Origin: Liolophura sinensis
Taxonomy: Eukaryota; Mollusca; Polyplacophora; Chitonida; Chitonidae
Assembly: GCF_032854445.1 (NCBI RefSeq)
Contig: NC_088300.1
Coordinates: forward strand, 4,216,001-4,280,000
Direction: 5' to 3'
Length of the DNA: 64,000 nt
The notes beneath the pieces are model-generated. The model was given only the letters and a program-made list of their open reading frames with translations, was not told the DNA's origin and did no database searches. Positions 26,965-62,100 of this stretch are shown piece by piece; positions within the stretch are counted from its first letter, which is position 1; every line of letters begins with the position of its first letter. A program made the position numbers and the translations under genes.

Positions 26965-28534
26965 TCTTGAATATGAAATAATTCCTAAATTAACTTACAG
27001 GAGAAAGCACTTGACTTTCAATAACACTGTGATTCAGTGCTGACCATGACCAGTAGCATCCTAAAGGACCTGTTAAATTTAGCCTGGAGCTCGGAACATT
27101 GACAGTTCGCTTCTACCTCCGTCTCTCACATGTGTTCGAGTGACGCTATATGCGTGCACTCTCTCAACTCTCGCGTCTATTTGCTAGGTGCGTGCTACTC
27201 TCCACGATGCGGTATCTATACCTTGTTCCCAAGGGTCTCCGTCTCATACGACTCGTGTGGAATGATTTCCAAAAATGAGGTCTTCAGATTCACATCATCC
27301 AGCAATCACTTATCCCGATATACCATCATGATTGTTCCGTATATATTCCTTATCAAATAAGACATCGTGTATCTTTAATATGTACTTCAGAGAAAAAGTC
27401 AATAAATTTTAATCAATAATGGTAAAGTATTGCCAGGAAATGTTTCTGCGAAAAAAATCCTTATCGTTTAGTTGCAGTATAACACCACAATTAAAGCCGG
27501 TTATCAGGCCTGTATGTAATACAGGGAAGAAAGCATCATCAGTTCTGGTACCGAATATTAAAGGCTAACATCATAAAAAGACATACATGTACATGTATTG
27601 ATTTATAGGCCTACATGTAGGCGCCTAGGCCTGTTATACATATACAGGCCTACATGTAGGCGCCTAGGCCTGTTATACATATACAGGCCTACATGTAGGC
27701 GCCTAGGCCTGTTATACATATACAGGCCTACATGTAGGCGCCTAGGCCTGTTATACATATACAGGCCTACATGTAGGCGCCTAGGCCTGTTATACATATA
27801 CAGGCCTACATGTAGGCGCCTAGGCCTGTTATACATATATAGGCCTACATGTAGGCGCCTAGGCCTGTTATACATATACAGGCCTATACAGACCTATTTA
27901 CTCGAATTATATTATTGTGAATGATCAGCCAGCCAACTTTAATAAATATATGTATCAGAACAGTGATTGGAATTCAAAGATGTGTTTTACCATGTACATC
28001 TTTGACTCGACAGCGTAAAAATACTTGGAGAATTTATTCAATGAATTCAAGATATATTCTCACATAAATGAGTTAGCGTAGGAGAATGTGCATGCGTGCG
28101 AACATATATTCTGGTATAGTGTGTTAAGTTGTCCATATCTATCTCTTACTGAGCACTTTCTGACACACAGATATAGATGTATGAAAGAAAATTCCCGCCA
28201 TGGGGACAAGATTATAATTATTATACTCTCCCGTCGATCGGTTGGGCCTATATAGGCTACAGTACCCTAACGGAAACTTGTATTCACTGCCAGAAGTTGG
28301 ATGAGGATCAGTTCAAAACTCGTCAGATGTAATGAAAATGTGAAAATTAATCTTTTGAAGATTTGAGAGACATAAATTTATCACTTCCAACTAATAATGC
28401 TTTCTTGGTACACTATGTACTTATTCAAATGAAGGAGATAGGTTTTTATAGGCCTGTTAGTCACCGGTAAACATGAGTCGTTGGGATTAAGGTGTTAAAG
28501 ACGAAAATCGCCGAAACAAGGAGAAAAATCTAAG
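26965..28534. promoter_or_regulatory. Divergent intergenic region between TRIM9-like and L2HGDH start codons
   Basis: 1.57 kb separate the two start codons, which face away from each other. The region must hold both 5' UTRs and promoters. No clear TATA box could be assigned. Its most striking content is the 39-bp palindromic minisatellite at 27606-27886, with TACATGTACATGTA just to its left. Frames in this stretch look non-coding. Confidence 0.6.
27606..27886. repeat. 39-bp palindromic minisatellite, 7 copies
   Basis: Each monomer alternates two complementary 8-mers, CAGGCCTA and TAGGCCTG. They are separated by 12 bp (CATGTAGGCGCC) on one side and 11 bp (TTATACATATA) on the other: 8+12+8+11 = 39. 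Every 8-mer therefore has an inverted partner on both sides, and the array could extrude many small hairpins. The monomer also contains the 12-bp palindrome CCTACATGTAGG. Copies are almost identical, which suggests recent expansion. The 39-bp period keeps frames open on both strands (a 13-residue repeat), which I take as a by-product. Confidence 0.97.
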
Positions 28535-31600: not shown

Positions 31601-34600
31601 CATTGAGATAACATCCAGTACCATCAATCAGACTGTTCTTCATGATGTATCATTATCAACAAGTACCAACAACAATACAATTTTATTGTATTCAAAGTCA
31701 TGCTTGGATTGGACCAAAAAAAGATAATGCCCAATTAAATTTTTTGTTCTTTACGTGTAGCTGAAATAGAAAAGCTCCAAAAAGTGATACTGTAGTATAA
31801 GATTTATTTAACAAGAGTGAACAAATTTTGTTTGTTTCGAGCCTCTGGTGAAAATCTTTGACTCAAGAAATTTTTACCCTGAGTTTCATAAATTAAATAC
31901 TGCATGGTCACAAGTTGGATATTCCTTTGTTTTTTGTTGTTGTATACTGTTGGCTAATTCATTGTATGTGTGTTATTTAGCCTGTCATCAGAGTGGTAAT
32001 AACAGTGGGGTGATTCACGCTGGCATCTACTATACCCCAGGGTCTCTTAAGGCAAAGCTGTGTGTGCAGGGTGTAGATCTTGTCTACAAATACTGTGATG
32101 ACAATGACATTCCTTACAAGAAGTGTGGAAAGGTAAGGCTGGTTTGTGTGAAGTATTTAGGGCAAGACCAGTGGTTTTGACTTGATTGTTTTAGATTTTC
32201 TTTCATAAACATAAAACCCTCGCATATTTAAGTCAGTTTTAAAATAACTGATTAATGAACTAATTCATAAAACGGAAGTGACGCATGTGGTGAATGTAGG
32301 CAGTGCAGCAACCAGACATTAGCATGTCAGCATTCACTGCCTGGCGATCAAGCAGAGGATCAAGCTGTAGTTATTTGTCAAATATATGTGTGTCCCTCTT
32401 ATCAGAGGCTCTGTCACATCACTTCATTGCATCATGTAGTATATATATACTGTTTATAAACCTGCGTGTTAAGATCACATCTTGCTCATGAGGGACTATA
32501 ACCATATAAATATGTAGGACTAAAACCTAGGACTATATACACGTATGCCGTCAGTGTAGTGTCATGACAGCTGATAGTTTTGCTGGTGCAAAGCCCGCTT
32601 TATGGTGGTATTCATCATACAAGCTGAAAGCACAGGTGTTTTTACGTATATTATAGCTTTAATGCAGGAACTCACCAGTATATGTTATTAGTAACTTTAA
32701 TAAACGTTATTTCAACAGAATTTGGCCAACCTATAAGCAAATCATGTGATGTCTGACAGTTGTACATACCTAACTTCAATTAAATCCCACCCAACCCCTG
32801 TAATGTGTATTCGTTTGATTTATTTATTTGATTGATTGGTGTTTTAGGCCATACTCGGAAATATTTCACTTATACCACAGTGGCCAGAATTATTGTGGGA
32901 GGCAACCCATGACCATCCACAGGTTGCTGGACTTCCCACATACGGCCAGAAAGGAAGTTGGACTTGAAATCACAGCGACCGCATTGGTGAGAGGCTCCTG
33001 GGTCATTATGCTGCTGTAGCTGTCAAAACACTACCAGTGCACAGTATAGAGTCCAGGCAAGGTTATCTACAGAGTCTGAGGAAAATGCAATTTGTGTCAT
33101 GGTGTGTATGAAAACATATATTTTAGCATATAGCTGCAGCACACCTCTGCTTTATAGCCAGACAGTGTATACTGACATTATTGCTGTGTTGTTGCTGCAC
33201 CGTCCACATGCTCCATGTGCGTCACTTCTGTTTTAGAAATTGGTTAAATAATCCCTTATATTAAATCTGACCTAAGTGTGCCCGGGTCTTGTCTTCATGA
33301 AATGAGATCTAGAAACAACTGAAACCAAGTCAAAGATCTTTGGTGTTGCCTTTGAATACTAACATTTGCACAGTGTAATATTGCAAATAGATTATAGGAT
33401 ACATGAAACAAATGGTTTGAATTTCTTATTGCATAAAAGTACAAAAAAGAAAAATGTCAGCCATGTTTTATTTTCTATTAGGAAGTGGTGTGGCAGGTTC
33501 AGCTCACACCTTGCCAACTGGCTGATGTGCACGAGACCCCACTGTACCGAGACAAAATTTAAATCGGCATTTCTACAAGTTTCCATTCAATATAATTTAA
33601 ACCTTATTTATTTTTACTGGTGATACTTTTATAAAACATAAAAGATTAGATTGACTGCCACTTGAACCAGTGTTGAGCGACAGACAGTTCTTTTCACTGA
33701 AACTTCCAATCTTCTGACTCAAATGCATGGTTTCTGATGTCCCAGCCAGAGTCGCTGGACTTTCCTATAAGAATTTCTATCCTGGGAAGCCGTGCCAAAT
33801 TCTTCACTCGTACTACCATCATTCCAGCGATATCAAATTCATGTCAGACAAAGCAGATGAGAGTGCGTTTGTGTCATCTATGGTGGCCGGTATGTGAGCA
33901 AAAATAGGTCATCATCGCTAGGCATTACCAGCTTTTCAAGTATCTGATGTAATTCCATTACTTTTCAAAATGTTTGTTGCAAAACTGTTTTACATATATA
34001 GTTTTCAGGGTTCTAATTAAGAGGTGTACATGTAGGGGTAATTTAAGATTGTTGTGCCATGACTTCTGGAAAAGCATACAGTGGGTAATGCATGGGTTTT
34101 TCAATGCATTGCAAGGTTTTTCAGTACATTATCTTGGGAAGTCTTGATTGTATGAAGTCACTCAACTAGCGCTCTGCAGCCGACAGGATAGGCAGACGGC
34201 CCAACTTTAGTGGTTTATAAATGGAACTAGTTAACATAATATTGTTTTAAATGCAGTTTGCAAACTAACATAGAATGAATATTATGTCTACGGAACATTT
34301 AATGTGAAAATAAAGACATTCCATACAATGTTTTACAAAAATTTTACACATTTATGTTATGATCCATAAATAGTAGGGTGAAACTTTGGGGCTATCTAGT
34401 TTAGATTTACTATGCCTTAGTATCATTGGTCAGATGAACAGATGTCAAGCAGAGTTGCTCCCCCTGAATTCCAAGATGTACGTGTACATGTAAATTGCGT
34501 GTTACTGTCCACATTTGTGTTGTAGAGCAAGGTTTTTACATATTTATGTCACATATATGTTAAATAAAAGATCATATTTTTCAGTGCTTTCCGGTGAAAA

Positions 34601-37600
34601 CATCTTATCTGACAATTTAAGAATTTTCAAAATAATAGTATGTGTGTACAGGAAACCATTTATTTTGTTGACTGACTTCTTTAACTTAATGTATATGTAA
34701 GACATATCATGAGCTTGTAAATGCTGTGTTTTTTAAAAGGGTGTATGTAGCATGTATTTGTTTTAGTGACATTTTTTCAGTCATGTAAAAAGTTTAGAAT
34801 ACTCTTGCTTTGATAATTAATTGATTTATTTATTTGATTTGTTTGATTGGTGTTTTACGCCGTACTCAAGAATATTTCACTTATAGGACGGTGGCCAGCA
34901 TTATGGTGGGAGGAAACCGAGTACAGTCTGGGGGAAATCTACTATAATTATTTGAACATTAATCTTTACAGAATGGAAGCAATATTTTGTATTTGTCCAA
35001 ACATTGTGGAGGTAAACAAAAGTCATAATATATTAGTTTTGGTGTTGAAAGTTACATTTCCCAGTAGGATATTTTCCTACCTTCCCAGCAAACCTCAGTG
35101 CACATATATAAGGTAAATGTAACTCTGAAAATCAGGCAAAATGAATAACTTAGTCATGTCAGAAATCGTGTTCAGTACTGTGATTACATGTTTAACATAT
35201 TTGTTGAAAGAGAATAGGTATGGCTATGCTACTGAGTGTGTGATTTGTCCTTGTTCTCAGTTAATTGTGGCCACAACAGCTGAGGAGGTCCCCAGGCTGG
35301 AGGGGTTACTGGGAAGGGGACAACAGAATGGTGTTCGTGACTTACGCATTATGGGACCAGATGGCATTAGGGAGATTGAGCCTAACTGTAGGGTGAGACA
35401 ACTAACACAAACTTTTAAACCTCTCCATGTGTATATGGTGTAAATATGCCATTGTGGATGCAATCAGACCTAGTATTGGAAGTGTATGCACATAAATGTG
35501 CTTTGTATTAATGTTTTTGTAGACTAGACATGAATATAAATTACTACATTAACTAGCAGAAACTTTTACCAGCACAATATACTTCAGTTTCTCCTACAAA
35601 AAGTTCATAGTTTTGTCGCCTTTTTCCAGGGATTGAAGGCCATCCATTCGCCTCACACCGGTATCGTTGACTATGGCCGTGTGGCCAGGTCGTATGGGGA
35701 GAATTTTCAGCGACTCGGTGGAGATGTCTTGACAGAGTTTGAGGTCAGTGAGTTCAGACTAACCTCAAAGAGCATCGGGGATCTGTCTCATCCCGTGACT
35801 GTCGCCAACAAACAAGGACAGGTAACTCGGTCACTCTACCTGTGACATTGTCCCGATGTCATTATTAATCAATAATTTCTCATGATACTGGTGGAGGGTT
35901 AATGATGTATGTGGTAAGTTATAGTGGCTGTCCTCGTGTCTGTGGATCTTCCACTCAGAAAATAACCTCTTGTGTATGTGGAATATTCTTGAGTTTACTT
36001 TAAAACACAAATTTTTGAATACTGAAAACTTGTTTCTAGGTTTATTGTGGTTTTATAATCAGTGGATAGTATTGGTTGTTTATGTTTTGGCAGACAGTGC
36101 AGGGTAGATATGTGCTGACCTGTGGTGGACTACAAGCTGACAGGCTGGCTGAGAAGTCTGGCTGTGAGCGTGAGCCACGCATTGTGCCATTCAGGGGAGA
36201 CTACTTGCTGCTGAAGCCAGAGAAGAGTAGTATGATCAATGGAAATATATACCCAGTGAGTCTTCATTACTGTAAAAATAACAGTGACACATATTCTTGT
36301 TAGTAACTCTTTAGTGATATACAGTATGAAGTGTTCAGTGAAATAGTGAGCAGGTCAGTGATTTAGGGTTAAATACATCATCTGCTTTCTAGACCTTTTC
36401 TCTCCTGATGTTTGACCTAAACAGTATTTTAATGGTCTAGCTTTGTCCAAATTAATGGTCTAGCTTTGTCCAAATTAATGGTCTAGTGTTGTCCAAAATA
36501 ATGGTCTAGCATTGTCCAAATTAATGATGGAGGATTGTCCAGTTTAATGCTCTAACATTGTCCAAATTATAAATATGTATCATGTGAATTCCAGCAGAAG
36601 CAGACTTCTATCAAAGTTTGGAATTTAGCCGAGGTTTAGAAGTCATTTAACAAACCTTAAATATTTGAAGTGGTCGTGCTAGTGATATCACTATGTGAAG
36701 TGGTCGAGTTAGCGATATCAGTATGTGAAGTGGTTGAGCTAGCGATATCAGTATGTGGAGTGGTCGAGCTGGTGTATCAGTACGCATTAAGCCCTGTGCT
36801 CGTCAGTTTGAACTACACGTATATACCGGTACGCCTCTCCCTCAGAGCACTATTGTTGGGGGACAAATCCGCCTGCCATCTTGTATGTGAAGTGTGTTGT
36901 GTGCAGTTTGGTTAATGGGTTGTGTCATATATATATTCATGTATAATACAGCCACAACACAGATATTGTGTGATGCTGGATAGTAACTGTAAGTCAGCAA
37001 CATATGGCTTAAATTGAATAAATACATGATAACTGAGCCTCTGAGTGCAATCAATTTACCAAATATTAAGGTTTTCTTCACTGAAACATTTGAAAGCACA
37101 TGTAACAATGTGTGCAAGAACAACTTTGGGGTACTGTTCTAATGAATCGCATGTTGTAGTGAAGCTTGTTATAGTGAGTGAGAGGTGCACTGTGATGTAA
37201 TAATGGCCAATTTCTCTATAGGTTCCAGACCCCCGCTTTCCCTTCCTGGGTTTTCATTTCACCCCTCGTATGGATGGCAGTGTGTGGCTAGGCCCAAACG
37301 CTGTCCTGGCATTTAAGAGAGAAGGCTATCAGCTGACAGACTTCAGTTTGACAGACTTCATAGATGCTGTCCGTTTCAGGTATAAAACATTGTTAATATA
37401 TTTTGGAGAATGCACCGATTTTTAAAGGTTGTCTAGATTTCCCTTAAAAATTTCCCAAAAATGGCATTTTTGGACGCAAATAAAGGTCAGTAAATATTGG
37501 TTTTGGTGCTGAGACTTACATTTTTCCAGAGAGATAACATTTGTAGTGTGCAGACCTCAGGAGCGCTTTCTGAAATTAGTAGAGCCTGTAGAATCAGGCA

Positions 37601-40600
37601 AAATGAGGGGCTCAGTCAGGGACAAAATTGTACTTCAAATACACTTATATTAGGCCTATGTCATTACAAGTAGAAATTTGTTACCAAATCTTCTACCTGT
37701 AACTGTGCATCAATGGAATGAGGGGTGTTACAACGTTGCATGACACACTTCACACTATGATTGCAAATGAGAGGCTTGGTCACTTCCGGCTTACATGTTC
37801 AGCAGACTTATAAACCTTGAGTCACTTGAGTGATTTAAAAGCTGAAATAGCCAGTACCTCTTTTTGGCACTCATCAGTTTTTTTGTATTCAAGCAAATTA
37901 GTATCCATGTCACTAACTGATTTTAAACATAACAGGTCTGATGTAGTGATTGTGTTTCTCTGGTCAATGTATTCATTCTTCCTGTCAAACAAATGTACTG
38001 ACTGATAGTTTACCTGTCCCAGGACGTTTGGGACGTTGAAAATATGGAGTTGATGCCAGTGTGGAACTGAAAACTGCTTGTTTTCCAATCATGAAATCTG
38101 CGTTTTTCTTGTTAAACTACATGTAAATAGGACATCTGAACAGTACAAAACAAGAGAATGTTTGCTTTATATTTGAAACAAACAAAAGTAGGTCAAGGTT
38201 TTATTATGCACTCACCGTGGTTTTGCCACCTTCGATAGTTAAGGTATTAAGACAGCTGTAGGAACAGAACTGTAGTATTGTTATGTTTCCGTATTATTAT
38301 TAAATGTTTGTATTATGTTGCTTACAATAATATGTTTTGTGAATGAATGCTTCACTGTTCTGTAATTCCTTTGTATGGGTTATCTCCCCTGTAAATGAAC
38401 TACTAGATCCTGTGTTACTATACCACGTGATTTGCCCTGTATAAGGCTGTGTCGAGCCGTACATCGGCAGTTCTTGCAGAGCTCGGAGAACTCGTCTCTC
38501 TTCCTGAATAAGGATACTGAGGCAAAATCCTGAATAAAGCCTGGCGGGTATTAAATGAAGCTTACAGCCTGCAGAAGGCTATCAGAGCTTATCACGCCAG
38601 TTTCTCTGTCCTGATTATGAGGGCCGGATTGAGTGCTCACGCCGGTGCGTGCGCATTACCTGTCTGTATATATATCTTCAATAAACTGTCGCAAACTTAT
38701 CCAGTGTGTTCTGGTTCGTCTATCAATCTCCGGAGCCCCTTCTCGAAACAAGTCTGTCCCTGGGGATTAGGCTTTATGGACGATCCTTATAACATTGTGT
38801 TACCTGGCTCCGTAACAGTATGAGCCTATCCCGGTGAATGATGGGTGTCGCTTAACTGTACCAACATTACGGTATCTCAGCAACTGATGTGGCTTACCTG
38901 TACCAGCATTATGGTATCTTAGCTTTGAGTTTTGAGTCTATTTCAGTGAACGATGGCCGTCGCTTACCTGTACCAGCATTATGGTATCTTAGCTTTGAGT
39001 TTTGAGTCTATTCCAGTGAACGATGGGCGTCGCTTACCTGTACCAGTGTTATGGTATCTTAGCTTTGAGGCTGAGTTTATTCCAGTGCATGAAAGGTGTC
39101 ACTTACCTGTATCATCGTTACTGTAACTTTGAGTCTGTCTATCCAAGTGAACAGTGGGTGTTGCTCACCTGTGCCAGCCTTATCTTAACTTTGAGGTATC
39201 CCAGTGAACGATGGGTGTCTCCTACCTGTACAAGTATTACGGTTTCTTAGCTTTGAGTCTGAGTCTCTTCCAGTGAATGATGGGTGTTGCTTTTCTGTAC
39301 AAGCGGTATCTTTGCTTTGAGAATGAGCCTATCGAGGGAATCAATGGGTGTGGCTTACATGTACCAGCATTACAGTATGCTAGTCTATCCAAGTCAGTGG
39401 TGGGTGTCATTTAACTGTACCAGCGTTATGGTCTCTTAGCTTTGAGTCTGACTCTATCCCAATGAACTACTGATGTGGCTTACCTGTACTTTGAGTCCAT
39501 GGGTGTGGCTTACCTGTACCAGCATTATGGTCTCTTAGCTTTGTGTCTGAGTCTGTCCCAGTGAATGAAGGATGTGGCTTTGGCAACCTTACACCAGGAA
39601 TATTGTTATGCAGGTGTCAGGTTGAGGTGCAGTGGTGTTTTGCAGCCTTATGTCATGAGATTTGTTAGGTAGGTGTCTCGTTGAGGTGCAGTGGTGTTTT
39701 CCAGCCTTATGTCATGAAATGTGTTAGGTAGGTGTCAGGTTGAGGTGCATTGGTGTTTTGCAGCCTTATGTCATGAGATGTGTTAGGTAGGTGTCTGGTT
39801 GAGGTGCAGTGGTGTTTTGCAGCCTTATGTCATGAGATTTGTTAGGTAGGTGTTTGGTTGAGGTGCAGTGGTGTTTTGCAGTCTTATATCATGAGATGTG
39901 TTAGGTAGGTGTCTCTTTGAGGTGCAGTGATATTTTGCAGCCTTATGTCATGAGATTTGTTAGGTAGGTGTTTGGTTGAGGTGCAGTGGTGTTTTGCAGT
40001 CTTATATCATGAGATGTGTTAGGTAGGTGTCTCTTTGAGGTGCAGTGATATTTTGCAGCCTTATGTCATGAGATTTGTTAGGTAGGTGTCTGGTTGAGAT
40101 GCAGTGATATTTTGCAGCCTTATGTCATGACATTTATTAGGTAGGTGTCTGGTTGAGGTGCAGTGGTGTTTTGCAGCCTTATGTCATGAGATTTGTCAGG
40201 TTGAGGTGCAGTGGTGTTTTGCAGCCTTATGTCAGGATATCTTTTATGCAGGTGTCAGGTTGAGGTGCAGTGGTGTTTTGCCGCCTTATGTCATGACATG
40301 TGTTAGGTAGGTGTCTGGTTGAGGTGCAGTGGTGTTTGCCGGTGTTTTTATTTTTTTCATAATTGTGTTCTGTAGTCTAAAACTGAAACATAAATATCAA
40401 GGAGGTGGGAATTTTCACTTTTTGTCTTGTGATGTTTCAGAGGACTACGGAAGCTAGCAATGAAACACCTGACATTTGGTATGCGAGAGATGTACGAGGC
40501 GTTCAGTTTGTCAGCCAGTGTGAAGAAGCTACAAAAGTTTGTCCCATCTTTAACTGTGGATGATGTCATCAGGTACAAAGATAAATTCTAATGTAGAATA

Positions 40601-41052
40601 GTTGGGTAGAGGTGTTACACAGTTGTCAGTGAACTGATAATGCAAATGTTACAGCAAACTGTAGTTCGAATTACTGTAAAGGTAAAAAGAGTTGACTGTC
40701 ATATGTCAGTGAAATAACTCGTAGGCTGTTCTAATGAAGATGTGTGCTTTCAGGTGGAAAATGTGTTACAGGTACAGTTTATCACTTTGTGATTGGGCTT
40801 AAATACTCTGTGTGGTGATAGATCCAATCATTTGTTCATTGTCAAATCTCTTTCAGAGGCCCGTCAGGTGTAAGGGCCCAGGCCTTGGATCATGACGGAA
40901 ACCTGGTGGATGATTTTGTGTTTGATGGAGGACAAGGCGACCTAGGCAGTCGACTCCTGCATGTACGCAACGCGCCATCTCCGGCTGCCACATCATCACT
41001 AGCTATTGCGAAGATGATCGCAGATGAAGTTCACAAAAGATTTCAGCTATGA
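28535..41052 (+). CDS. L2HGDH: L-2-hydroxyglutarate dehydrogenase, mitochondrial, nine exons
   Basis: This FAD enzyme oxidises L-2-hydroxyglutarate, a side product of malate dehydrogenase, to 2-oxoglutarate in mitochondria. Joining 28535-28656, 31386-31519, 31981-32132, 35261-35392, 35630-35821, 36094-36255, 37222-37379, 40441-40572 and 40857-41052 gives 1380 bases and 459 residues; the human enzyme is about 463. All introns are GT-AG and phases match. The N terminus is Arg/Ser/Thr-rich and lacks acidic residues apart from one Asp at position 22, as expected of a mitochondrial presequence. The FAD dinucleotide-binding motif GGGIVG is at 55-60. Family blocks follow: [57 protein letters not shown] and a C-terminal [16 protein letters not shown]. 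Nothing is broken. Intron 3 holds a fold-back and SINEs; intron 7 holds a solo LTR and two minisatellites. The start ATG has a good context (AAGATGGCC). Confidence 0.97.
29139..29161. repeat. Perfect 10-bp hairpin
   Basis: ACTAGGGGAT and ATCCCCTAGT are separated by three T. It lies in L2HGDH intron 1; no role is known. Confidence 0.6.
29808..30046 (+). mobile_element. tRNA-derived SINE, full-length type
   Basis: The 5' part has a tRNA-like head with a B-box-like GAGTTCAAGTCC after CAATGCGGTGGCTGT. Then come a body (CATGCTGGCTTCC, TCTCCTCCCACTGTAATGCT) and a tail with ACCAATCAAATAAATACATA. It matches in reverse the copies at 32814, 34816 and 53083. I recall this domain as common in mollusc SINEs, but I cannot assign a named family with certainty. 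It lies in L2HGDH intron 1. Confidence 0.85.
30185..30201. repeat. Poly-G run of 17
   Basis: Uninterrupted G in L2HGDH intron 1, just 3' of the SINE. A second G run occurs at 53024-53042. Confidence 0.95.
31386..31519 (+). CDS. L2HGDH: L2HGDH exon 2 (FAD-binding motif)
   Basis: The acceptor is TTATTACAG. It encodes residues 42-85 including [19 protein letters not shown], the Rossmann beta-alpha-beta with the dinucleotide-binding glycines. The donor is GCATTAG|GTAATG, phase 1. Confidence 0.96.
31981..32132 (+). CDS. L2HGDH: L2HGDH exon 3
   Basis: The acceptor is GTTATTTAG. It encodes residues 86-136 with [17 protein letters not shown] and the end KKCGK. The donor is GGAAAG|GTAAGG, phase 0. 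The inverted-duplication arm begins only about 20 bases into the following intron. Confidence 0.96.
32152..33360. repeat. Large inverted duplication with about 245-bp arms (fold-back)
   Basis: The left arm is 32152-32395 and the right arm 33115-33360. Reading the right arm in reverse complement, both contain in the same order TTTGACTTG, a TTTCAT-AA-ACCC block, TTAAGTCAG/TTAGGTCAG, AAAC-GAAGTGACGCA, GCAGTGCAGCAAC/GCGGTGCAGCAAC-like, ATGTCAG-AT-CACTG-CTGGC, AAGCAGAGG and AAATATATGT. The loop of about 720 bp contains a SINE. It starts 20 bases after exon 3 of L2HGDH, so the pre-mRNA could form a long imperfect hairpin. It may be a TIR element or a local inverted duplication; no target duplication was found. 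Confidence 0.85.
32814..33020 (-). mobile_element. SINE copy, reverse orientation, nested in the fold-back loop
   Basis: It begins TTGATTTATTTATTTGATTG, continues TGGTGTTTTAGGCCATACTC and ends at the tRNA-like part GCGACCGCATTGGTGAGAGG. It is nearly complete but lacks the GGGAGGAAACC-GGCAGAG segment intact. Confidence 0.88.
33746..33889 (+). CDS. Orphan candidate exon inside L2HGDH intron 3
   Basis: A short frame bounded by TGATGTCCCAG and GCCG|GTATGT reads [19 protein letters not shown], then [14 protein letters not shown] and [17 protein letters not shown] 56-codon frame with its own ATG at 33727 runs to a stop at 33897. The residue composition and splice signals look coding, but it is not part of L2HGDH: exons 3 and 4 join in phase without it. 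I do not recognise the protein. It could be a nested or captured exon, a decayed copy of another gene, or chance. Confidence 0.35.
34816..34941 (-). mobile_element. SINE copy, truncated (3' domain only), reverse orientation
   Basis: It contains GATTGGTGTTTTACGCCGTA, ACTCAAGAATATTTCACTTA and GGTGGGAGGAAACC, then breaks off before the tRNA-like part. L2HGDH intron 3. Confidence 0.88.
35025..35160 (+). repeat. Unclassified interspersed repeat, copy 2
   Basis: It carries TTAGTTTTGGTGTTGAAAGT, CCCAGTAGGATATTTTCC and AATCAGGCAAAATGA. The last motif recurs at 37595-37612 in copy 3. It lies just upstream of L2HGDH exon 4. Confidence 0.5.
35261..35392 (+). CDS. L2HGDH: L2HGDH exon 4
   Basis: The acceptor is TTGTTCTCAG. 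It encodes residues 137-180, from [17 protein letters not shown] to REIEPNCR. The donor is TGTAGG|GTGAGA, phase 0. Confidence 0.95.
35630..35821 (+). CDS. L2HGDH: L2HGDH exon 5
   Basis: The acceptor is CCTTTTTCCAG. It encodes residues 181-244 starting [16 protein letters not shown], a family signature. The donor is GGACAG|GTAACT, phase 0. Confidence 0.96.
36094..36255 (+). CDS. L2HGDH: L2HGDH exon 6
   Basis: The acceptor is TGTTTTGGCAG. It encodes residues 245-298 including [15 protein letters not shown] and [16 protein letters not shown]. The donor is TACCCA|GTGAGT, phase 0. Confidence 0.96.
36428..36567. repeat. 23-bp tandem repeat, about 6 copies
   Basis: The unit is TTAATGGTCTAGCTTTGTCC plus AAA, with variants AGTGTTG, AGCATTG and GAGGATTG. 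It lies in L2HGDH intron 6. Confidence 0.85.
36669..36785. repeat. About 30-bp tandem repeat, 4 copies
   Basis: The unit is GTATGTGAAGTGGTCGAGCT plus AGCGATATCA. It lies in L2HGDH intron 6, 100 bp after the 23-bp repeat. Confidence 0.85.
37222..37379 (+). CDS. L2HGDH: L2HGDH exon 7
   Basis: The acceptor is TTTCTCTATAG. It encodes residues 299-350 with [19 protein letters not shown]. The donor is TTTCAG|GTATAA, phase 2. It is followed by the longest intron, 3.06 kb. Confidence 0.96.
37455..37640 (+). repeat. Unclassified interspersed repeat, copy 3
   Basis: It shares GGTTTTGGTGCTGAGACTTA, a TTCCAGAGAGATAAC block and AATCAGGCAAAATGA with copies 1 and 2. It is the longest copy and lies in L2HGDH intron 7. 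Confidence 0.5.
38279..38817. mobile_element. Solo LTR, 539 bp, with 4-bp target duplication GTAT
   Basis: The ends are TGTTA and TAACA, perfect inverted repeats with the canonical TG...CA. GTAT precedes the element (38275-38278) and follows it (38818-38821). Inside are a TATA-like CTGTATAAGG near 38438 and AATAAA signals near 38533 and 38679, in plausible LTR order for transcription to the right. No internal gag-pol sequence is present, so this is a solo LTR left by recombination. A 4-bp duplication suits Ty3/gypsy-like elements, but the family was not identified. It sits in L2HGDH intron 7. Confidence 0.85.
38818..39563. repeat. Degenerate tandem repeat of about 70 bp, about 10 copies
   Basis: Recurring blocks are GTGAACGATGGGTGTCGCTT, ACCTGTACCAGCATTATGGT and ATCTTAGCTTTGAGTCTGAG. 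The copies are strongly diverged and of uneven length. The array starts at the right edge of the solo LTR. Confidence 0.8.
39605..40345. repeat. 59-bp minisatellite, about 12 copies
   Basis: The monomer has GAGGTGCAGTGGTGTTTTGC, AGCCTTATGTCATGAGATTT and GTTAGGTAGGTGTCTGGTT. It ends about 95 bp before L2HGDH exon 8. Confidence 0.93.
40441..40572 (+). CDS. L2HGDH: L2HGDH exon 8
   Basis: The acceptor is TGATGTTTCAG. It encodes the second part of Arg351 to the first part of Arg395, with [20 protein letters not shown]. The donor is ATCAG|GTACAA. Confidence 0.95.
40857..41052 (+). CDS. L2HGDH: L2HGDH exon 9 (C terminus and stop)
   Basis: The acceptor is ATCTCTTTCAG. It encodes [20 protein letters not shown] through [19 protein letters not shown] and ends DEVHKRFQL-stop. 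The C-terminal glycine-rich and [10 protein letters not shown] blocks are typical of the family. Confidence 0.97.
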
Positions 41053-45479: not shown

Positions 45480-46727
45480 TTACTTGCAAAATAAACTAAA
45501 CAATTTATTTACATTAATAACAACAAATCTAAAGCAGAAGTAAAGGAAAATAGCATTTATTATTTTCCATATGACATAAAATTCATGATACATTTTTTTA
45601 ATATCATATACAAATATAATAAATTTTATATAACTTGTAGGCTCATATCTTGGACATGTTAACAATACCTAAACCTTAAGCATGCACACACATATGTAAA
45701 CTGAGTAAGATGCTTAAAGAAAACATTTTTTTCATTTTCTTAAAATAAACAGCAAGTTACAATATATTATCAACAAATGTCTGCAAAACAAGAAAAACAA
45801 AATGCATCCTGTCACTTCTACATAAAATAAAAAAAAGTAAAATATAGGACAGAAAACATTAAGTCAAAAGCACTTAGTTTTCACACGATAAGATATGAAC
45901 ACCCCAAAGTACACATCCAAACACAGGTACATTCAATACATGAACACCATCAGGCATTACCTGTACATCCTCTTAAATAATTAAAACCTATGGTAAGTCC
46001 CACTATATATACAAAATGTACTAGCAACAGGAGAGAAATAAAACATTACCACAGGCCTCACAGAGCAGAGCAATAAGAAACATCCCATGTCAACTTACTC
46101 CAAGATGACGAGGTTATAGTCTGTCCTTAAACCTTAACATTGTGTGAGCATTATGTGTACATACAGTGTATATTGTCAGAACAAGTTTTGTGTTGAATTT
46201 TGTCATATTACTTGCAAAAACAAACTGCATGCCGGCCATCTTAGCGGGCCTACACAGTGAACAGAACGATCCAAGAATTTCCCCATTCTCATTCAATTAA
46301 ACATGAAATTAAGCCTTGCACAGACATCAACCCAACCAGCTGTAAGCCTCAAGCCATACTCATATTGTTGTGTCATGGCCGAACTTGGTTTGATGCACAG
46401 GTTCCAGGAGAAAAAAATCTGAACCCTGCCTCCTCCCCAAACACCAGAACATATACCGGTACAAAGAAATATGCATATACTACTCCTTACGGAATTTTAT
46501 CACAATTTTATCACATACACATTGTACACGTACTTTATAATTACAATATAATTAAAATCAAAGATCTTCTCTGGATTTTCATCTTTCTAATTATCTGCAA
46601 TGCTGTACCAGTTATGAGGCTGCACAAGTGATGATACATGTACTGTATCAATGCTTGCCTACATCAGTAAAAATATATGCAAAATTACCATATTTCAAAT
46701 CAATGAATGCGCGTTGATGAACAGATT
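45480..46727 (-). other. Likely PLAAT 3' UTR
   Basis: Sequence downstream of the PLAAT stop is AT-rich with no exon. AATAAA-type signals on the minus strand occur near 45504-45509 and again farther upstream, so the transcript may end near 45490. The exact end is not determined. Confidence 0.4.
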
Positions 46728-46829
46728 TTAGTTATTTGCATTTCTGCGTGATCGTCCCATGCCCATGGCCAAACCGACAAATGCACCGACCACACAAGTG
46801 ACAGCAGCAAATGTCACGGCTTTGTCTAC
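46728..46829 (-). CDS. PLAAT coding exon 4 (membrane anchor)
   Basis: The acceptor is TTTTATTTTTACAG. It encodes VDKAVTFAAVTCVVGAFVGL, then AMGMGRSRRNANN and a TAA stop. The hydrophobic helix and basic tail match the anchor of PLAAT proteins. Confidence 0.93.
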   Translation of the reverse strand, partial: VDKAVTFAAVTCVVGAFVGLAMGMGRSRRNANN

Positions 46830-49800
46830 CTGTAAAAATAAAATCCATCAAGCAAATTTGAATAAGATTACTTGCAAAAGAAGTAGCGTAAATGACAGCA
46901 ATGGCGTACGTATGTCCCATGAAAACTTACACCATGCAAACCCCATACAACTTACACAATTGTGTGACAATTAAACCACCTGCATTTGACTATGTAGCTG
47001 ACAAACTTTCCCACAGGCGATGTCCTCATTTGTGACCTGCAAGTATGTGATCCGCAACAAACTTCCAACAAAATGATCCTTCGCTAAGCAGGACAGGTGG
47101 TCTGCATCTTAACCCATGATGGTGATGTCTTAACTGCTTACTCCATGACACACCATAGTGACATCTTACCTGCTCACATCATGACACACCACAGTGACGT
47201 CTTACCTGCTCACTCCATGACTCACTTTGGTGACATCTTACCTACTCACTCCATGACGCACCATAGTGATGTCTTACCTGCTCACTCCATTACACACTAT
47301 GGTGACAGCTGCTCATATCATGACACACCACAGTGATTTCTTACCTGCCTACACCATGACACACTATGGTGGCGTCTTACCTGTTCACTCCATGACACAC
47401 TACAGTGATTTCTTACCTGCTCACTCCATGAGACACCATAGCGACACCAGGCGGCAAAGTGCTCGCAGTTCTTACACAACACACTGTAACCAATTTCCCC
47501 TAACTTGGCTCTTGCCCTGCGTACAATATCCATACCACGACCAATCGGACTGAAACAAAATCCGTACAAGTATACATCAGCATGGCCAAGTGCTTACCAT
47601 ACAAGTATACATCAGCATGGCCAAGTGCTTACCATACAAGTATACATCAGCATGGCCAAGTTGTTACTGTACAAGTATACACCAGTATAGCCAAGTGGTT
47701 ACTGTACAAGTATACATCAGCACAGCCAAGTGGTTAAAGTACAAGTATACACCAGCATGGCCAAGTGGTTGAAGTACAAGTATACACCAGCATAGCCAAG
47801 TGGTTACTGTACAAGTACAAGTATACGTCAGCACAGCCAAGTGGTTAAAGCACAAGTATACACCAGCATAGCCAAGTGGTTAAAGTACAAGTATATACTA
47901 GCATAGCCAAATGGTTACTCTACAAGTACAAGTATACATCCGCACAGCCAAGTGGTTAAAGTACAAGTATACACCAGCACAGCCAAATGGTTACTCTACA
48001 AGCACAAGTATACATCAGCACAGCCAAGTGGTTAAAGTACAAGTATACACCAGCATAGCCAAGTGGTTAAAGTACAAGTATACACCAGCATAGCTAAGTG
48101 GTTACTCTACAAGTACAAGTATACATCAGCACAGCCAAGTGGTTAAAGTACAAGTATACACCAGCACAGCCAAGTGGTTACTGTACAAGTATACATCAGC
48201 ACAGCCAAGTGGTTACTGTACAAGTATACATCAGCACAGCCAAGTGGTTAAAGTGCAAGTATACACCAGCACAGCCAAGTGGTGACTGTACAAGTATACA
48301 TCAGCACAGCCAAGTGGTTACTGTACAAGTATACATCAGCACAGCCAAGTGGTTACTGTACAAGTATACATCAGCACAGCCAAGTGGTTACTGTACAAGT
48401 ATACATCAGCATAACCAAGTGGTTACTGTACAAGTATACATCAAGTGGTTACTGTACAAGTATACATCAGCACAGCCAAGTGGTTAAAGTACAAGTATAC
48501 ATCAGCACAGCCAAGTGGTTACTGTACAAGTATACACCAGCACAGCCAAGTGGTTAAAGTGCAAGTATACATCAGCACAGCCAAGTGGTTACTGTACAAG
48601 TACAAGTATACATCAGCACAGCCAAGTGGTTAAAGTACAAGTATACACCAGCACAGCCAAGTGGTTAAAGTACAAGTATACACCAGCACAGCCAAGTGGT
48701 TACTGTACAAGTATACATCAGCACAGCCAAGTGGTTACTGTACAAGTATACATCAGCACAGCCAAGTGGTTAAAGTGCAAGTATACACCAGCACAGCCAA
48801 GTGGTGACTATACAAGTATACATCAGCACAGCCAAGTGGTTACTGTACAAGTATACATCAGCACAGCCAAGTGGTTACTGTACAAGTATACATCAGCACA
48901 GCCAAGTGGTTACTGTACAAGTATACATCAGCATAACCAAGTGGTTACTGTACAAGTATACATCAGCACAGCCAAGTGGTTAAAGTACAAGTATACATCA
49001 GCACAGCCAAGTGGTTACTGTACAAGTATACACCAGCACAGCCAAGTGGTTAAAGTGCAAGTATACATCAGCACAGCCAAGTGGTTACTGTACAAGTACA
49101 AGTATACATCAGCACAGCCAAGTGGTTAAAGTACAAGTATACACCAGCACAGCCAAGTGGTTAAAGTACAAGTATACACCAGCACAGCCAAGTGGTTACT
49201 GTACAAGTATACATCAGCACAGCCAAGTGGTTACTGTACAAGTATACATCAGCACAGCCAAGTGGTTACTGTACAAGTATACATCAGCACAGCCAAGTGG
49301 TTACTGTACAAGTATACATCAGCACAGCCAAGTGGTTACTGTACAAGTATACATCAGCACAGCCAAATGGTTACTGTACAAGTATACACCAGCATGGCCA
49401 AGTGGTTACCGCACAAGTATACACCAGCATGGCCAAGTGGTTATGGTTGATGTCTCTCAATCGCCAGGGCCAATGAGGTGTTAGTTCTATTCCACCCTCA
49501 GTCAGAGGCCATGTGTGGACATTAATACAGAGTTTGTGGGACATCACCAATATAATGAATATCTGAGTCAAGCGTGGGAAAGTTGTCACAAGCACTCCAA
49601 GATTCCCATATAAGGTCATTATTACCAATACATAATGTTCCTTGGGCATCTTCCAAAGAGGACCCTAATATTTTTCAATTGGATTTTTTGAAGAACATGT
49701 TTTTTTCTTTCCCTCAATGTTATTATTTATTTTAAATTCCTCTTTTTCAACTAAAAGTAAACAAAAACCTTCTCCTACTTAAGTACTATTCTTTTTTTCT

Positions 49801-51116
49801 GGTAGAGTCCAACAAACAAGTGTTGTTTCTCTAAGGAAAAAAATTTTGTTCATTGTTTAACAATGTGTAGAAAGAGGGCTTTGTAGTTACAAGTAAATCA
49901 GACAGAAATCTAATGATTGTCCTCCTGGTTGTGAAACCTGGTGGTGGAGTGGAAGGAAAGTGGCCAGCCATGTCCAGGTAGACTATCAGGTAAAGATTAT
50001 AAGATGCCAGGACAAAGTTTGATACCTTTTAAACTACTGTATTCTAGTGTAATCCTTGTACATATACCTAATACCACACAAAGTATTATGTAAATCAAGT
50101 AACAAAATAGAAACGAGTTGGAATCAAAGATTAATGCCTCTCAACCTTGCTTTTGATAATCTTAGATGTACACTCAACATGTACATTCAAAAGGTAATGG
50201 GGAAATCAGAAAAATAATACAGTACTTCTTGTTAATAACAATGCTTAATTTAGCCTCGAACCCATGCTTACGTATATTTGTGATCCTTGTTATTCTTTTT
50301 TGCCCTGCTTCCCATAGCGACCTCAAAGAAATCCTCCTCTTTGACCCAAGCCTTGTTGAATTCCTCTCCAGCAATGCTAAACTTGCTGTTAGACTGCCAG
50401 CCATCTCCTATCCCATCATTCTCTCCACTGAGGTGGATGACTGTGCCATGTCCTGTACGTGCACAAAATGTCTTCATGATTATACCTGCCCATAATCCAA
50501 TATCATATACACTGCATATATATACATGTACATGCAGAGGAGAGGGACATAGCCCGGGCATGTAAGGAGGGGGAATTGTCCCAGGTGAAACTGAGAGTAG
50601 GAGAAAATGTTCATGGCTGAAAATGTCCGCTGCTCAACATAAAGGCTCCCAATAAACACACCAGTGCTTACTGGCTGTGACGCACCAACTACTATACAAT
50701 TTACTCTCAAAATATTAAACATACAGTGTCATGCAATTCTGTACCTGAAGTACCTGTATCTGGTCATCTCTTTTCAACAAATATACAAGTAGGGGCCTAC
50801 ATGTACCTGTAACTGTAACAAGAAACTGCACAGTTTCAACTATTTCACACTGAATATTTCTTTTCTGAAAAAATAGATGGGAGTCAACTACTGTCTGTTC
50901 ATAAATTAGGAGAAATGCAACATACCTAAATACTCACCATATACATGTCCCCAAAATGCTTATAGCTACATTGTACATGTACTTATTGATCATGCACTTA
51001 CCGGCATACACAGCGTAATGAGAGTACCACATATTTCTGGGGAACTCGATCATGTCTCCAGGCTCCAACTGACGTAATACTGTCTCATTGTGACGCCGCA
51101 CTGACAAAGTAGCCAT
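46728..51116 (-). CDS. PLAAT/HRASLS-type LRAT-domain phospholipase/acyltransferase, four coding exons
   Basis: Members of this family are small NlpC/P60-fold enzymes that remove acyl chains from phospholipids or transfer them to phosphatidylethanolamine. Joining 51116-51002, 50452-50272, 47549-47417 and 46829-46728 gives 531 bases and 176 residues (vertebrate members about 160-170). The catalytic set is present: His33 in SHYAVY, His45 in VIHL, and Cys127 in the diagnostic NCEHF. The two His are 12 residues apart, as in the family. NNKDHKYTP and RYGVSWSEQ are further family blocks. A hydrophobic segment at about 147-166 forms the C-terminal membrane anchor, followed by a basic RSRRNANN end. 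Exons 1-3 carry the enzyme domain and exon 4 the anchor. The start is the ATG at 51116; a TTG in frame nine bases upstream is not needed. Which vertebrate paralogue it matches cannot be told, so I give no symbol. Confidence 0.95.
47105..47447 (-). repeat. 36-bp array containing copies of the PLAAT exon 3 splice donor, 9-10 copies
   Basis: Read on the minus strand, each unit is close to GTGTCATGGAGTGAGCAG followed by GTAAGA and about 12 more bases. The first unit is the real exon 3 end and donor. Later units at 36-bp steps keep CAG|GTAAG in most cases (cut positions 47417, 47381, 47345, 47276-47273 region, 47205, 47169 and so on), with decay farther out. The period is 12 codons. Confidence 0.9.
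47417..47549 (-). CDS. PLAAT coding exon 3 (catalytic Cys)
   Basis: The acceptor is GGATTTTGTTTCAG. It encodes PIGRGMDIVRRARAKLGEIG, then YSVLCKNCEHFAAWCRYGV and SWSEQ. The donor is GAGCAG|GTAAGA, phase 0. Its last bases are the first unit of the 36-bp array and its acceptor abuts the 35-bp array; see the findings. Confidence 0.95.
47565..49446 (-). repeat. 35-bp minisatellite in PLAAT intron 2, about 53 copies
   Basis: The plus-strand unit is CATCAGCACAGCCAAGTGGT plus TACTGTACAAGTATA. Some units have an extra ACAAGT (41 bp). A block of about 500-520 bp occurs twice (GCATAACC variant at 48409 and 48931, GGTGACT variant at 48281 and 48803). On the minus strand each unit has TGCTGATG, fitting a branch point, and then CTTGTACAG. 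The array abuts the exon 3 polypyrimidine tract. Frames of up to 204 codons across it are by-products. Confidence 0.95.
49450..50271 (-). other. Unique part of PLAAT intron 2
   Basis: No exon or repeat was recognised. The donor of exon 2 lies at its right end. Confidence 0.5.
50272..50452 (-). CDS. PLAAT coding exon 2
   Basis: The acceptor is CACGTACAG. It encodes HGTVIHLSGENDGIGDG (catalytic His45) through EEFNKAWVKEEDFF to KKNNKDHKY. The donor is TATAC|GTAAGC, phase 2. The open frame continues into the intron only to an immediate stop. Confidence 0.94.
51002..51116 (-). CDS. PLAAT coding exon 1
   Basis: It encodes MATLSVRRHNETVLRQLEPG and then DMIEFPRNMWYSHYAVYA, including catalytic His33. 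The donor is TATGCCG|GTAAGT, phase 1. A good acceptor (TCTGAAATTTCAG) ends at 51134, leaving 17 bases of 5' UTR in this exon. Confidence 0.95.
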
Positions 51117-51654
51117 CTTTTGCAATATTTAGACTGAAATTTCAGAACATACACAAACATACATAACAATATGGTTCTTCGTATATGAATTCAACCTTTT
51201 CACAAGGCAACTGTGAGGCAATTTATTCACTTGATAAGTTTATGATTATGGCGATAATTTATCTCATGTGGATTTGCCAATATCTTAACTGGCTTTACAG
51301 AAAATATAATTGTTTCAGTCCAGGCAGAAATATGCCCTCCTTAACATGTACATATAAAACAAGACTTAGTAAATAGGTCTTGTATCTAAAAGAAAAAATA
51401 GGATACATTTTTAGCAAATGCTTCATGTTGGCTTGAACAGCAACAAAATATACGTGACTTCTCAGGCACTGTCTATAGTTTAGAATAGGCGTACAAACCT
51501 CTGGACGGGCTATATTAGATAGGTGGTGCACCTTCCCTCTTTTTTGTCAGGCACAATTTTAACAGATTGGCAGTGCAAACTGCAACCCTGCCCCTTTCTA
51601 GCCCACCGGTACAAAAGCGCCCAGTGCCATCAACATCCAATATTAACAGGGAAA

Positions 51655-51765
51655 ACAATGTTTAAGCAAATGCTACAGGTAGTACCTTAAAAAGTACTGC
51701 ACATGTTGAGCTCAGGTTTTGCACACATGTAGAACACTAGAACAAGCATGAGGTAGAATAAGTCA
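51655..51765 (-). repeat. Partial copy of the ~180-bp repeat family
   Basis: It contains AAAAAGTACTGCACATGTTG and GAGCTCAGGTTTTGCACACA. The same blocks recur at 52830-52900, and in opposite orientation at 54668-55171. Confidence 0.6.
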
Positions 51766-52719: not shown

Positions 52720-53080
52720 CTGGAATGTTCTATCGTTGATACACTGTGTGCATATTAATTACTGTAAACTTCAAAATTCATGACTTAGGGTACTGTGTAT
52801 TAGAATCACTGTTAAAGTAAATGTTAGGGGCAGTACACACATCTCAAAAAGTACCGTACTACATATAATGAGCTGAGGTTTTGCATACATGTACAATAAC
52901 AAAACTAAAAAGATGTTCCACTGTTGATTCCCTGTGTGGATATTAATTACTGTAAATTAAAACATTCACAAGTAAGTGTAGGCCTATTAGAAACTGTTAA
53001 GAATCCATGTTAAGATAAATGTTGGGGGGGGGGGGGGGGGGGCGTCACCTCTCAAAAAGTACTGCTTGCATCAAGGTGAA
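52720..53080 (-). repeat. Two tandem copies of the ~180-bp repeat family
   Basis: Both copies carry CTGTGTG-ATATTAATTACTGTAAA, followed by TATTAGAA-CTGTTAA and CTCAAAAAGTAC. The second has a run of 19 G at 53024-53042 inserted before GCGTCACCTCTC. They are inverted relative to the three copies at 54668-55171. Confidence 0.7.
53024..53042. repeat. Poly-G run of 19
   Basis: Uninterrupted G inside a copy of the ~180-bp repeat. Confidence 0.95.
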
Positions 53081-54667: not shown

Positions 54668-55171
54668 CAGCGATGGAATATCCCCCTTGCGTCGTATTGT
54701 GCTTTATATGTATGTAAAACCTCAGGTCAATACATATAATACTTTTTAAGATACCAACCCTAACAATTTGTTTAATAGTGATAATAATTCATAATACACA
54801 AAGTCAGGAATTCAGTAATTTACTGTGTTCATTCTGCACACACCCAATCAATGATGGAATATCCCCCTCGTGATATAGTGCTCTACATGTGACCAAACCC
54901 TTAGGTCAATACATGCAGTACTTTTTGAGAAACCAGCCCTAACATTTTGATTAATAATGATTCTTATACATAATACACCAAGTCAAGAATTCAGTAATTT
55001 ACGGTACTTAATATGTACAGATTGAATCGACGATACCCAGTGTTATTCTGTTCTACATGAGTGCATACCCTGAGCTCAATACATGCAGTACTTTTTGAGA
55101 TACCACCCCTAACACTTTGCTTAACATTGATTCTTATACACAATACACAAAGTCAGGAATTCAGTCACATT
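54668..55171 (+). repeat. Three tandem copies of the ~183-bp repeat family
   Basis: Blocks recurring at about 180-bp steps are GATGGAATATCCCCCT (degenerate in the third), CAATACATGCAGTACTTTTT, CCAGCCCTAACA, ATACACAAAGTCAGGAATTC and AGTAATTTAC. The same family occurs inverted at 51655 and 52720-53080. Confidence 0.85.
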
Positions 55172-59140: not shown

Positions 59141-62100
59141 AGGATTAAAACATTTATTTGCATTAAAGGACATTTAAAAAAAAAAGAACTGGATGATAAT
59201 TTACAAGTGGATGTTTATAAAGACACTGATAAAGCGAAGTAAACACTTCAAACATTTCACAAGTTCAAGAATGTTCTGGACCATGATAGTATTGGACAAG
59301 TAAGACGAACACAAAATGTTTGTAGAACTTCCTGACGAAGGACAGCTAAAACTGGCATCTTCGGTAAAACTTCTCAGCAAGCCTGAAAAATAAATGAAAA
59401 ACAGGGGATAAAGAATTTAATAAAATAAAAAGAGGCAGGAAAGCAGCTACGTCTCTGTACTAACTCAACAATTTTCTACATTAACCACCAAGGTTACTAC
59501 ACAATGATGTAAAGTTTGTGACATTTTGATCTAAATTCCCATACATTTTTCTCCTCTTCTAAGCTAAGGCTTTTCTATGTGAATTTTACTATTAACTGTT
59601 TGATAACACATTTCCAAGTAAAATTCCTCAATTCGCTCACTTTAAATCGTCTCCAATGACATAATTTGGAAAAAGAAAAACTCAGGTCTAAAAAATCATG
59701 CTAAATAATGTTTGACTGATACCCAATAGTACAAATTGTTTTTGGCTTACTGTTACCTGTATTTCACTGATGTTTTACACAATTCAAACTATTTTTTATG
59801 GGTGTAGGAAACTACAACACCTTTCCACAGGACCTGACAAAAAGTTGCAGGGGATTCAGTAAAAGCTCAGGCCCGGCCAAGACAAAATAGCTGGCAAGCA
59901 GTTTCGCACTCTCCTTCATGCCACTTTACGCAAGCACATCCATTTTTTTTCTTTTCCATTCGCATAAAAATATATTTTTTGGAGAGTAACAGATCATTCG
60001 CCTAAATTTGACTTGAAACAAAAACAAAAAATATCAGCAGAAATACTATTTTTTTCAGTTTGTCCAGCTTTTTATACACTGTCACGGTGGAAGTAAAACA
60101 GCCCCATCAAATATTTAAATTGAAGTGAACAGTTGTCCATGCATATATTACTGGTACCTGTGTACAATGAAACAACAAAAAACAACTGACGAATGAAGAG
60201 GAAAACTTACGTAAATGACAGCTGGCTGTCAGTGATCCATCAGGCCACTGACAGCCTTCATGTGTCCACCACAGTGACAGTCACGCGCCTCCTCTATATG
60301 CATGTTGTGTCTACAGATCTCGCTCTTCAGATCAAATCAGCAACTGTGAAAAGAAATTCGGAATAGTTTGTTTTATCTCTCACAATAACAGCATATTATT
60401 AAAGGAACGATGCGTATTGAAAGTTACCTTGTTGCCTGAAGTAAAGAAAAGATATTTTCTCCAACGAAAATGTACCACTAGACTACTTAAGTCGAGCTTT
60501 CTTTGACTTGAACATTTCAACATTATTTTGTCTCTGAATGGAAATGATACAATTTCTTTGGACAACAAAAATATTATATATATAGAACTTGATTGAGTCT
60601 AGATGCAGCTGGAAATAATGTCCAGTATATGAGGGTTATACGAACCATTCATTGGCATCTCATCAATCTGTGTAGAATAGTACTGTTCAATATCCCTCAA
60701 GATCCGGATGTCATCATTCTTCACAAAATTGATAGCAACACCCTTTCTGCCAAATCGACCAGAGCGACCAATCCTAAAAGTACCAATAACATGTATAGAT
60801 ATTCATGACCCTGTTTTGCTTTTTGGTGCTATGCCTTGTATCCCAACTGTTCCTAAAACATTCCATTTTTCTCAACTCTAAGGTGTTATTATAATAGTGG
60901 TTTAGACAAAGTATAGCGTACAATATCGATCAATTGATATGTCACACCAATACAAGTTGTCATCACTGCCAAGACCATATTTGTGCACAAGAACTGGTTC
61001 ATGACATCAGCAAAAAAATTATGTACTTCTTCAGAGTCACAGTTGCACATTTGTTGAATGATAGTAATGAAGTAATTAAGGTATCTCTTGGTAAATTCCA
61101 TATTTTACACAAGCTTCGACCCTCATCCATGCTCATAACATTTGAAATTGATGTAGAGATGACTTGCTTTCTTTTTTATTGCTACTGACTGCTACTGGCT
61201 TAGCTGAATCTTTCAACGAATATTTACTGGATAGTTTTAATTCTAACATTTCTTCTACAAGACATTCCTCAAAACTGACGCTTTCCTAATAAAAGGCCGC
61301 CTTTCTAGCTTTTAACATTACTTCAGACCTTGTAGCTTGATTGGCACAATGTCACCAAAAGTGTAATATCTGTACAGTAATTCATCATTTGGTCACAGCA
61401 TAGAAACACACAGCTGATCAATGAAAGCCTTAACAGCGGTATCCACTAACAGTGAACACCAAGCCAGTTAAATGTTCTGTACCATACATGTATAAACACT
61501 TGACCATGTGGCTGATATATCTTTTGTTTAGTCAATGACTTACCTATGGATGTACAACTCACGGTTGTTAGGCAGATCGTAATTAATGACTAACGAGACC
61601 TGCTGAACATCAATTCCTCTTGCCCAAACATCTGTGGTAATCAAAACTCGACTGAAACAAAAGGGCCAACGCTCTGACTTTAATATGATAAGATATCAAA
61701 ATACCATAATAGTTGTTTAAGAGCTCATGTTTAAGGGCTGTAGTCAGATGTTAAATTCAATAGGATCAAGTAATAAATGTTAGCCAGGTACTGAACTCAA
61801 TTAGAGTATCAGGGTTTGCACAGCTCATACGAAGATAAATTCCAGGATTTTTCAAGGACTTAAAAGCAATATATGCTGCATGTCACAGTCATCCACAGGC
61901 CCCCAGTCCTACGTGGACCTGGTGTAAATTCCATCCATATGAATGTGTGTGAAAGACAGTCATCTTTCGCCATTTTTGAAAGACAAACTAACATGCCAAC
62001 AGCTCTGAACCCAGTTTCTGTACAATAGTTAGGAGTTGGACTGTTGTTCACTTTCATCCTCTAACTTCTCGCAATGAAACAATACACTTCTGCCATTTTG

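Follow-up and report, generated by a model that had tools for sequence, protein, structure and literature searches.

How an exon that encodes a catalytic motif is recognized between two tandem arrays, and whether both arrays descend from the splice signals of that exon, are the questions raised by exon 3 of the PLAAT gene analysed here. The first-pass annotation of the window (the whole stretch of 64,000 bases analysed) had proposed that the minisatellites on either side of this exon both started by tandem duplication of the sequences that define it. This proposal stood for the downstream array, whose unit consists of the exon end plus the donor, but not for the upstream array, since the polypyrimidine tract and AG of the acceptor lie outside its unit. 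We consider it likely that a boundary-spanning repeat of the kind called a "mirage" lies downstream and a separate minisatellite upstream, both most likely near-neutral, with the true acceptor and donor mostly used. The coordinates of all mapped features are given in Table 1.

Table 1. Features mapped in the window, with strand and basis of the assignment.
Feature	Position	Strand	Basis
PLAAT gene, four exons, 176 aa	51116-46728	minus	homology
PLAAT exon 1 (115 coding nt, counted from the first ATG), donor CCG|GTAAGT	51002..51116	minus	in-frame LRAT N-terminal match; donor position unique
PLAAT exon 2 (181 nt), donor TAC|GTAAGC	50272..50452	minus	required for unbroken LRAT match of the assembled protein
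PLAAT exon 3 (133 nt, phase 2 to phase 0), NCEHF motif	47417..47549	minus	homology
PLAAT exon 4 (102 nt with stop), C-terminal hydrophobic segment	46728..46829	minus	translation; acceptor position unique
Upstream minisatellite, intron 2, 53 units, two main unit types, ends 14 nt before exon 3	47564..49443	minus	TRF, unit list
Genuine 3' splice region GGATTTTGTTTCAG, downstream of last array unit	47550..47563	minus	sequence
Downstream minisatellite, unit = last 30 nt of exon 3 + GTAAGA	47122..47446	minus	TRF, identity scan, pairwise matrix
Genuine unit of downstream array (exon 3 end + donor)	47411-47446	minus	identity scan
Eight intronic copies of this unit	starts 47410, 47374, 47338, 47307, 47271, 47235, 47199, 47163	minus	identity scan of intron 3
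L-2-hydroxyglutarate dehydrogenase-like gene, eight exons mapped	31386-41050	plus	FAD-dependent oxidoreductase match and solved homologue
Degenerate array, ~70-bp units, many TACAG|GTAAG-like donors, antisense within L2HGDH intron	38800-39560	minus	
eIF4A3 (DDX48)-like gene	60640-63999	minus	exons matched to solved chains

The assembled PLAAT protein matched the Pfam LRAT domain (PF04970, E=8.2e-27, residues 16-139) as well as PLAAT / HRAS-like suppressor chains of solved structure (best E 1.2e-18), and its NCEHF cysteine motif and two upstream histidines align with those chains; we take this cysteine and the two aligned histidines to be catalytic. By the LRAT domain, the NCEHF motif and the histidines, the gene is predicted to encode a PLAAT/LRAT-type acyltransferase. 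The exon of 133 bp with the catalytic cysteine that the first-pass annotation had described was recovered, with NCEHF inside it; it is bounded by the acceptor TTTTGTTTCAG|TCCG and the donor GAGCAG|GTAAGA and is translated as PIGRGMDIVRRARAKLGEIGYSVLCKNCEHFAAWCRYGVSWSEQ. The hydrophobic tail in the translation of exon 4 was judged by eye only; in PLAAT1, the C-terminal transmembrane region is called hyper-conserved in the relevant passage of PMC10760033.

On the downstream side, TRF reported 36 bp x 9.0 copies at 47128-47446, with overlapping longer-period rows beginning at 47122. An identity scan of intron 3 (587 nt) with the exon-end unit located eight intronic copies, so that the 9-10 copies of a 36-bp unit containing the exon end and CAG|GTAAGA that had been noted at first are borne out. 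In order from the exon, these copies match the exon-end unit at 29, 27, 24, 31, 30, 30, 30 and 32 of 36 positions, compared with a maximum of 23/36 outside the array (64 kb, both strands; mean 9, SD 2.7); the weakest of them, at 47338, is 5 bp short and with 24/36 lies hardly above this outside maximum. A pairwise identity matrix, from which the shortened copy was excluded, gave a mean of 29.9 identities in 36 between the genuine unit and the seven full-length intronic copies, and 29.4 for those seven among themselves. Thus, the genuine donor region lies within the set of monomers, a point that the annotation had put forward as a check of its proposal. The 36 exon bases preceding the genuine unit matched array units at 5-8 of 36 positions, which places the start of the duplicated stretch about 30 nt inside exon 3. 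The exon copy encodes RYGVSWSEQ, where solved PLAAT chains have RYGVSRSDQ and RYGVARSDQ; because it encodes residues common to these chains, exon 3 is the probable source of the array units, and the duplication probably proceeded from exon to intron. The minisatellite would have begun when the junction of exon 3 and intron 3 was duplicated in tandem, and may later have grown by unequal exchange or replication slippage. In structure, the downstream array is a mirage: it is minisatellite-like, it spans an exon boundary, and many but not all of its copies carry splice signals.

The boundary-spanning repeat is an already described phenomenon, to which the PLAAT locus adds a further example, compact and clearly delimited. 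Tandem repeats across exon-intron boundaries were named mirages in amphioxus globin genes and in Adh3, the latter in a 2002 paper cited in the globin study (PMC3087553), whose passages on the subject report AG/GT signals in many but not all copies and unstable lengths, and suggest that new introns may arise from mirages. Repeats of 60 and 108 bp are reported at the splice sites of PGBD5 in a study that also mentions troponin C (PMC3902484). As in these amphioxus genes, in which either the 5' or the 3' boundary may be duplicated, the PLAAT downstream array has a tandem, boundary-spanning unit with AG/GT in many but not all copies (PMC3087553, PMC3902484), and its 36-bp unit falls within the 10-72 bp reported for amphioxus Adh3. 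Unlike them, it lies in a PLAAT gene, 30 of the 36 bases of its unit are exonic, and the same exon is flanked on its other side by another minisatellite, far longer and not boundary-spanning. In amphioxus VCBP3, too, introns close to the coding exon contain copies of whole exons or of parts of them, and canonical splice sites are present in some of these copies, but no short tandem array is described in the corresponding passages (PMC2632668). Intron gain by duplication of AGGT or of a boundary (Rogers model; potato RdRp) likewise involves a tandem copy that brings ready splice signals (PMC4974935), whereas the PLAAT copies sit inside an existing intron and no new intron is inferred. The claim that no case had been described in this family held for PLAAT itself, since no report of a boundary-spanning repeat in a PLAAT gene was found in the PLAAT or amphioxus-repeat literature among the matches listed, but it did not extend to the phenomenon, given the amphioxus mirages of Adh3, the globins, PGBD5 and troponin C. 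The passages concerned in PMC2206037 and PMC12783039 contain no boundary-spanning case.

The decoy 5' splice sites that had been postulated around exon 3 do exist in intron 3. AG|GTAAGA is kept in 6/8 intronic copies, five of them with CAG|GTAAGA, identical to the true donor over nine bases, and one with TAG|GTAAGA; in the remaining two the donor has been lost (CTGTCA in one, TTAAGA in the other). Decoy donor 1 (+36 nt) is in frame and adds 12 aa (VRNHCSVSWSEQ) ahead of exon 4, and decoy donor 2 (+72 nt), also in frame, adds 24 aa (VRNHCSVSWSEQ plus VRRHHSVSWCRQ). All later decoys read through a stop in unit 47338, and from +139 the frame is altered as well. On paper, productive splicing is thus possible from two of the six usable decoys, and reading-frame analysis indicates that the other four would truncate the protein. 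If decoy donor 1 or 2 were used now and then, the linker from the catalytic domain to the C-terminal hydrophobic segment would be longer by 12 or 24 residues, and use of any donor past the second would lead to a stop. In experiments with duplicated donors, the intron-proximal copy frequently wins; since five decoys equal the true donor over nine bases, accurate use of the latter is not self-evident. The passages on donor choice in PMC5585400 concern SRSF1 and leave the preference for intron-proximal copies undecided.

These decoys could in principle make the downstream array a tunable splice switch, in which copy number sets the ratio of isoforms with 12 or 24 additional residues, or with premature stops; this we regard as an unlikely alternative. 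The length of the unit (36 bp, or 12 codons), the absence of stops up to decoys 1 and 2, and the identity of five decoys to the true donor are consistent with it, and in C. elegans a minisatellite is reported to be enriched next to genes in which several alternative splicing decisions are made (PMC4039745, in the part bearing on this point). The nine donor positions are, moreover, the least varied of 36 circular windows along the unit, with 2/31 of the unit deviations in the exon copy and the seven full-length intronic copies (copy 47338 excluded). Site permutation gave p 0.023, or 0.042 with intronic copies only, values that ignore the relatedness of the copies; as the copies of an array are related, this conservation is at most a hint, and could hint at retention of the decoys. 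Against a switch stand the four of six usable decoys that lead to stops, the loss of donors in two of eight copies, the weakness of the conservation test and the amphioxus mirages, which are reported without disturbance of regular splicing (PMC3087553, PMC3902484). A stronger version, in which selection keeps the mostly intact decoys as a rheostat of length and dosage at exon 3, seems improbable; were it true, a fast-changing copy number would set how often the catalytic domain is followed by the 12- or 24-residue extension or by a stop. The donor motif content of the array was rejected as evidence. The window holds 20 strong donor matches, of which six, the true donor included, are in the PLAAT array and seven in a minus-strand array at 38.9-39.5 kb without a known exon; thus, donor-like motifs inside arrays are not special.

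Under the near-neutral reading that we favour, the spliceosome would mostly use the true acceptor and donor of exon 3, and both arrays would be passengers. Adh3 data and globin RT-PCR suggest that regular splicing is undisturbed despite mirages (PMC3087553); on the other side, a database gene model of PGBD5 treats repeat copies as exon (PMC3902484), which counts against near-neutrality. The presence of a true donor and five decoys, equal over nine bases within about 250 nt, makes the locus a natural test of how the spliceosome chooses among 5' splice sites, and also of whether new exons or introns originate from mirages.

The upstream array differs in kind. TRF gave 52.9 copies of 35 bp (47564-49443) and 53 units were listed, in agreement with the approximate count of 53 copies of a 35-bp unit given before. 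Most units (43) are 35 bp long, six are 41 bp, and there is one each of 26, 34, 36 and 55 bp; the 55-bp unit is the last one and extends into the exon through the way of cutting. The description of these units in the first-pass annotation has to be corrected: CTGAT, said to be in each of them, is present in 31/53, with CTGGT in 18/53, and CTTGTACAG, said to be in most, is found in a bare majority (27/53). The motif GGCCATG occurs in units at both edges of the array and is rare among inner units. The idea that this repeat was built from the exon's own splice signals fails at the junction itself: the array and the exon are 14 nt apart, GGATTTTGTTTCAG comes only after the last unit, and the boundary is thus not spanned as it is in a mirage. 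The true polypyrimidine tract and AG are therefore outside the unit and unrepeated, and only a branch-point-like motif is held in common. The array would thus be an intronic minisatellite in its own right, whose expansion reached the edge of the acceptor.

The last upstream unit may nevertheless supply the branch point of exon 3. The AG-free zone before the true acceptor is 43 nt long and has a single yUnAy motif, the CTGAT of that unit, with its A at -28; since 4/11 mapped acceptors have no yUnAy motif in this zone, it is a candidate branch point only. The true acceptor has a weak tract, with 9 pyrimidines of 15 compared with 8 or 9 at 27 decoy TACAG sites and 9-13 at the 11 mapped acceptors, so that tract quality hardly separates true from decoy acceptors. 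It is position that distinguishes them, the nearest decoy CAG being 117 nt upstream. With the nearest stop in the exon 3 frame 15 codons upstream, use of a decoy acceptor would introduce a stop or shift exon 3 out of frame. No inverted repeats of at least 12 bp, by which the two arrays might pair across exon 3, were reported in 46700-49500.

That both arrays were born from the signals defining exon 3, as the first-pass annotation had it in full, is in our view improbable. The last upstream unit does adjoin the acceptor and holds the only yUnAy motif of its AG-free zone, and the unit shows a weak, 27-bp gapped resemblance to the start of exon 3 (p.002-.04 against mononucleotide shuffles, in eight combinations of unit, target and scoring). 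However, the real tract and AG come after the last unit and are not repeated, and among 6,200 60-bp segments of the window, 0.7-8% resemble the unit equally or better (three units, two scorings), for which reason an exonic origin of the upstream unit was rejected. Comparable closeness of an array edge to an exon is, furthermore, reached in 24% of random rotations. An origin from a tRNA or SINE was considered as well, GCC[A/G]AGTGGTT resembling a tRNA D-arm, and was not supported: no tRNA was found, Rfam gave nothing at gathering scores over the whole window or up to E=1 in 46700-51200, and the motif is confined to the array. An exact 31-mer of the unit was not found among prokaryote and viral records, a result of little weight given the nature of these collections. 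About 40 nt at 61484-61523, within an intron and just past a donor of eIF4A3, resemble the upstream unit and are its best or joint-best outside match in six scans, probably by chance.

An exact 331-bp repeat at offset 496 within the upstream array indicates block duplication and, together with a published globin mirage that was aberrantly assembled in a draft genome (PMC3087553), could suggest that copy numbers or arrangement are partly an artefact of assembly, which is very improbable in view of the point changes and indels that distinguish units along the array, the distinct sequence of both edges, and an exon-end similarity that does not depend on copy number.

The near-neutral reading was also set against the tandem repeats of the window as a whole. 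Twenty arrays, merged by hand from TRF rows and including a few with only ~2 copies, cover 18,684 of the 64,000 bases (29%); the short or low-complexity rows at 3444, 23838/23839, 29980 and 53207 were left out. These arrays were compared with 29 mapped boundaries, 15 in the L2HGDH gene, six in PLAAT and eight, approximate, in the eIF4A3 gene. A single array edge is found 14 bp or less from a mapped boundary, a closeness that 24% of rotations reach; with tandem arrays making up 29% of the window, an array ending so near an exon is unremarkable. Array-exon proximity was thus rejected as evidence, and the claim for the downstream array rests on sequence identity instead. A boundary inside an array occurred in 99.9% of rotations, a measure that is uninformative because rotations ignore coding constraint. 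Among the 20 arrays, the downstream one is the only one that contains a mapped exon boundary, in contrast to ordinary intronic minisatellites such as the upstream 35-bp array and those in the introns of the plus-strand oxidoreductase gene, which we take to be L-2-hydroxyglutarate dehydrogenase (L2HGDH). The latter introns hold five arrays (36.4, 36.7, 38.9, 39.2 and 39.6-40.3 kb), none of them closer than 104 bp to a mapped boundary. The degenerate antisense array in this gene might be a mirage derived from a minus-strand exon outside the mapped set.

Further repeats were noted elsewhere in the window. At 9078-12016, a 51-bp unit is repeated 57.6 times; one frame of the plus strand (1014 aa) and two of the minus strand (1006 and 986 aa) run through it without a stop, probably because the unit length is a multiple of three. 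A 39-bp array with 99% matching (27607-27886) lies ~0.6 kb upstream of a minus-strand exon encoding a RING and a B-box (TRIM-like; 26179-26994). Related stretches of the form GCAAAACCT..AG..AGTACTTTTT at 51680-51740, 52840-52890 and 54671-55165 are apparently a dispersed repeat.
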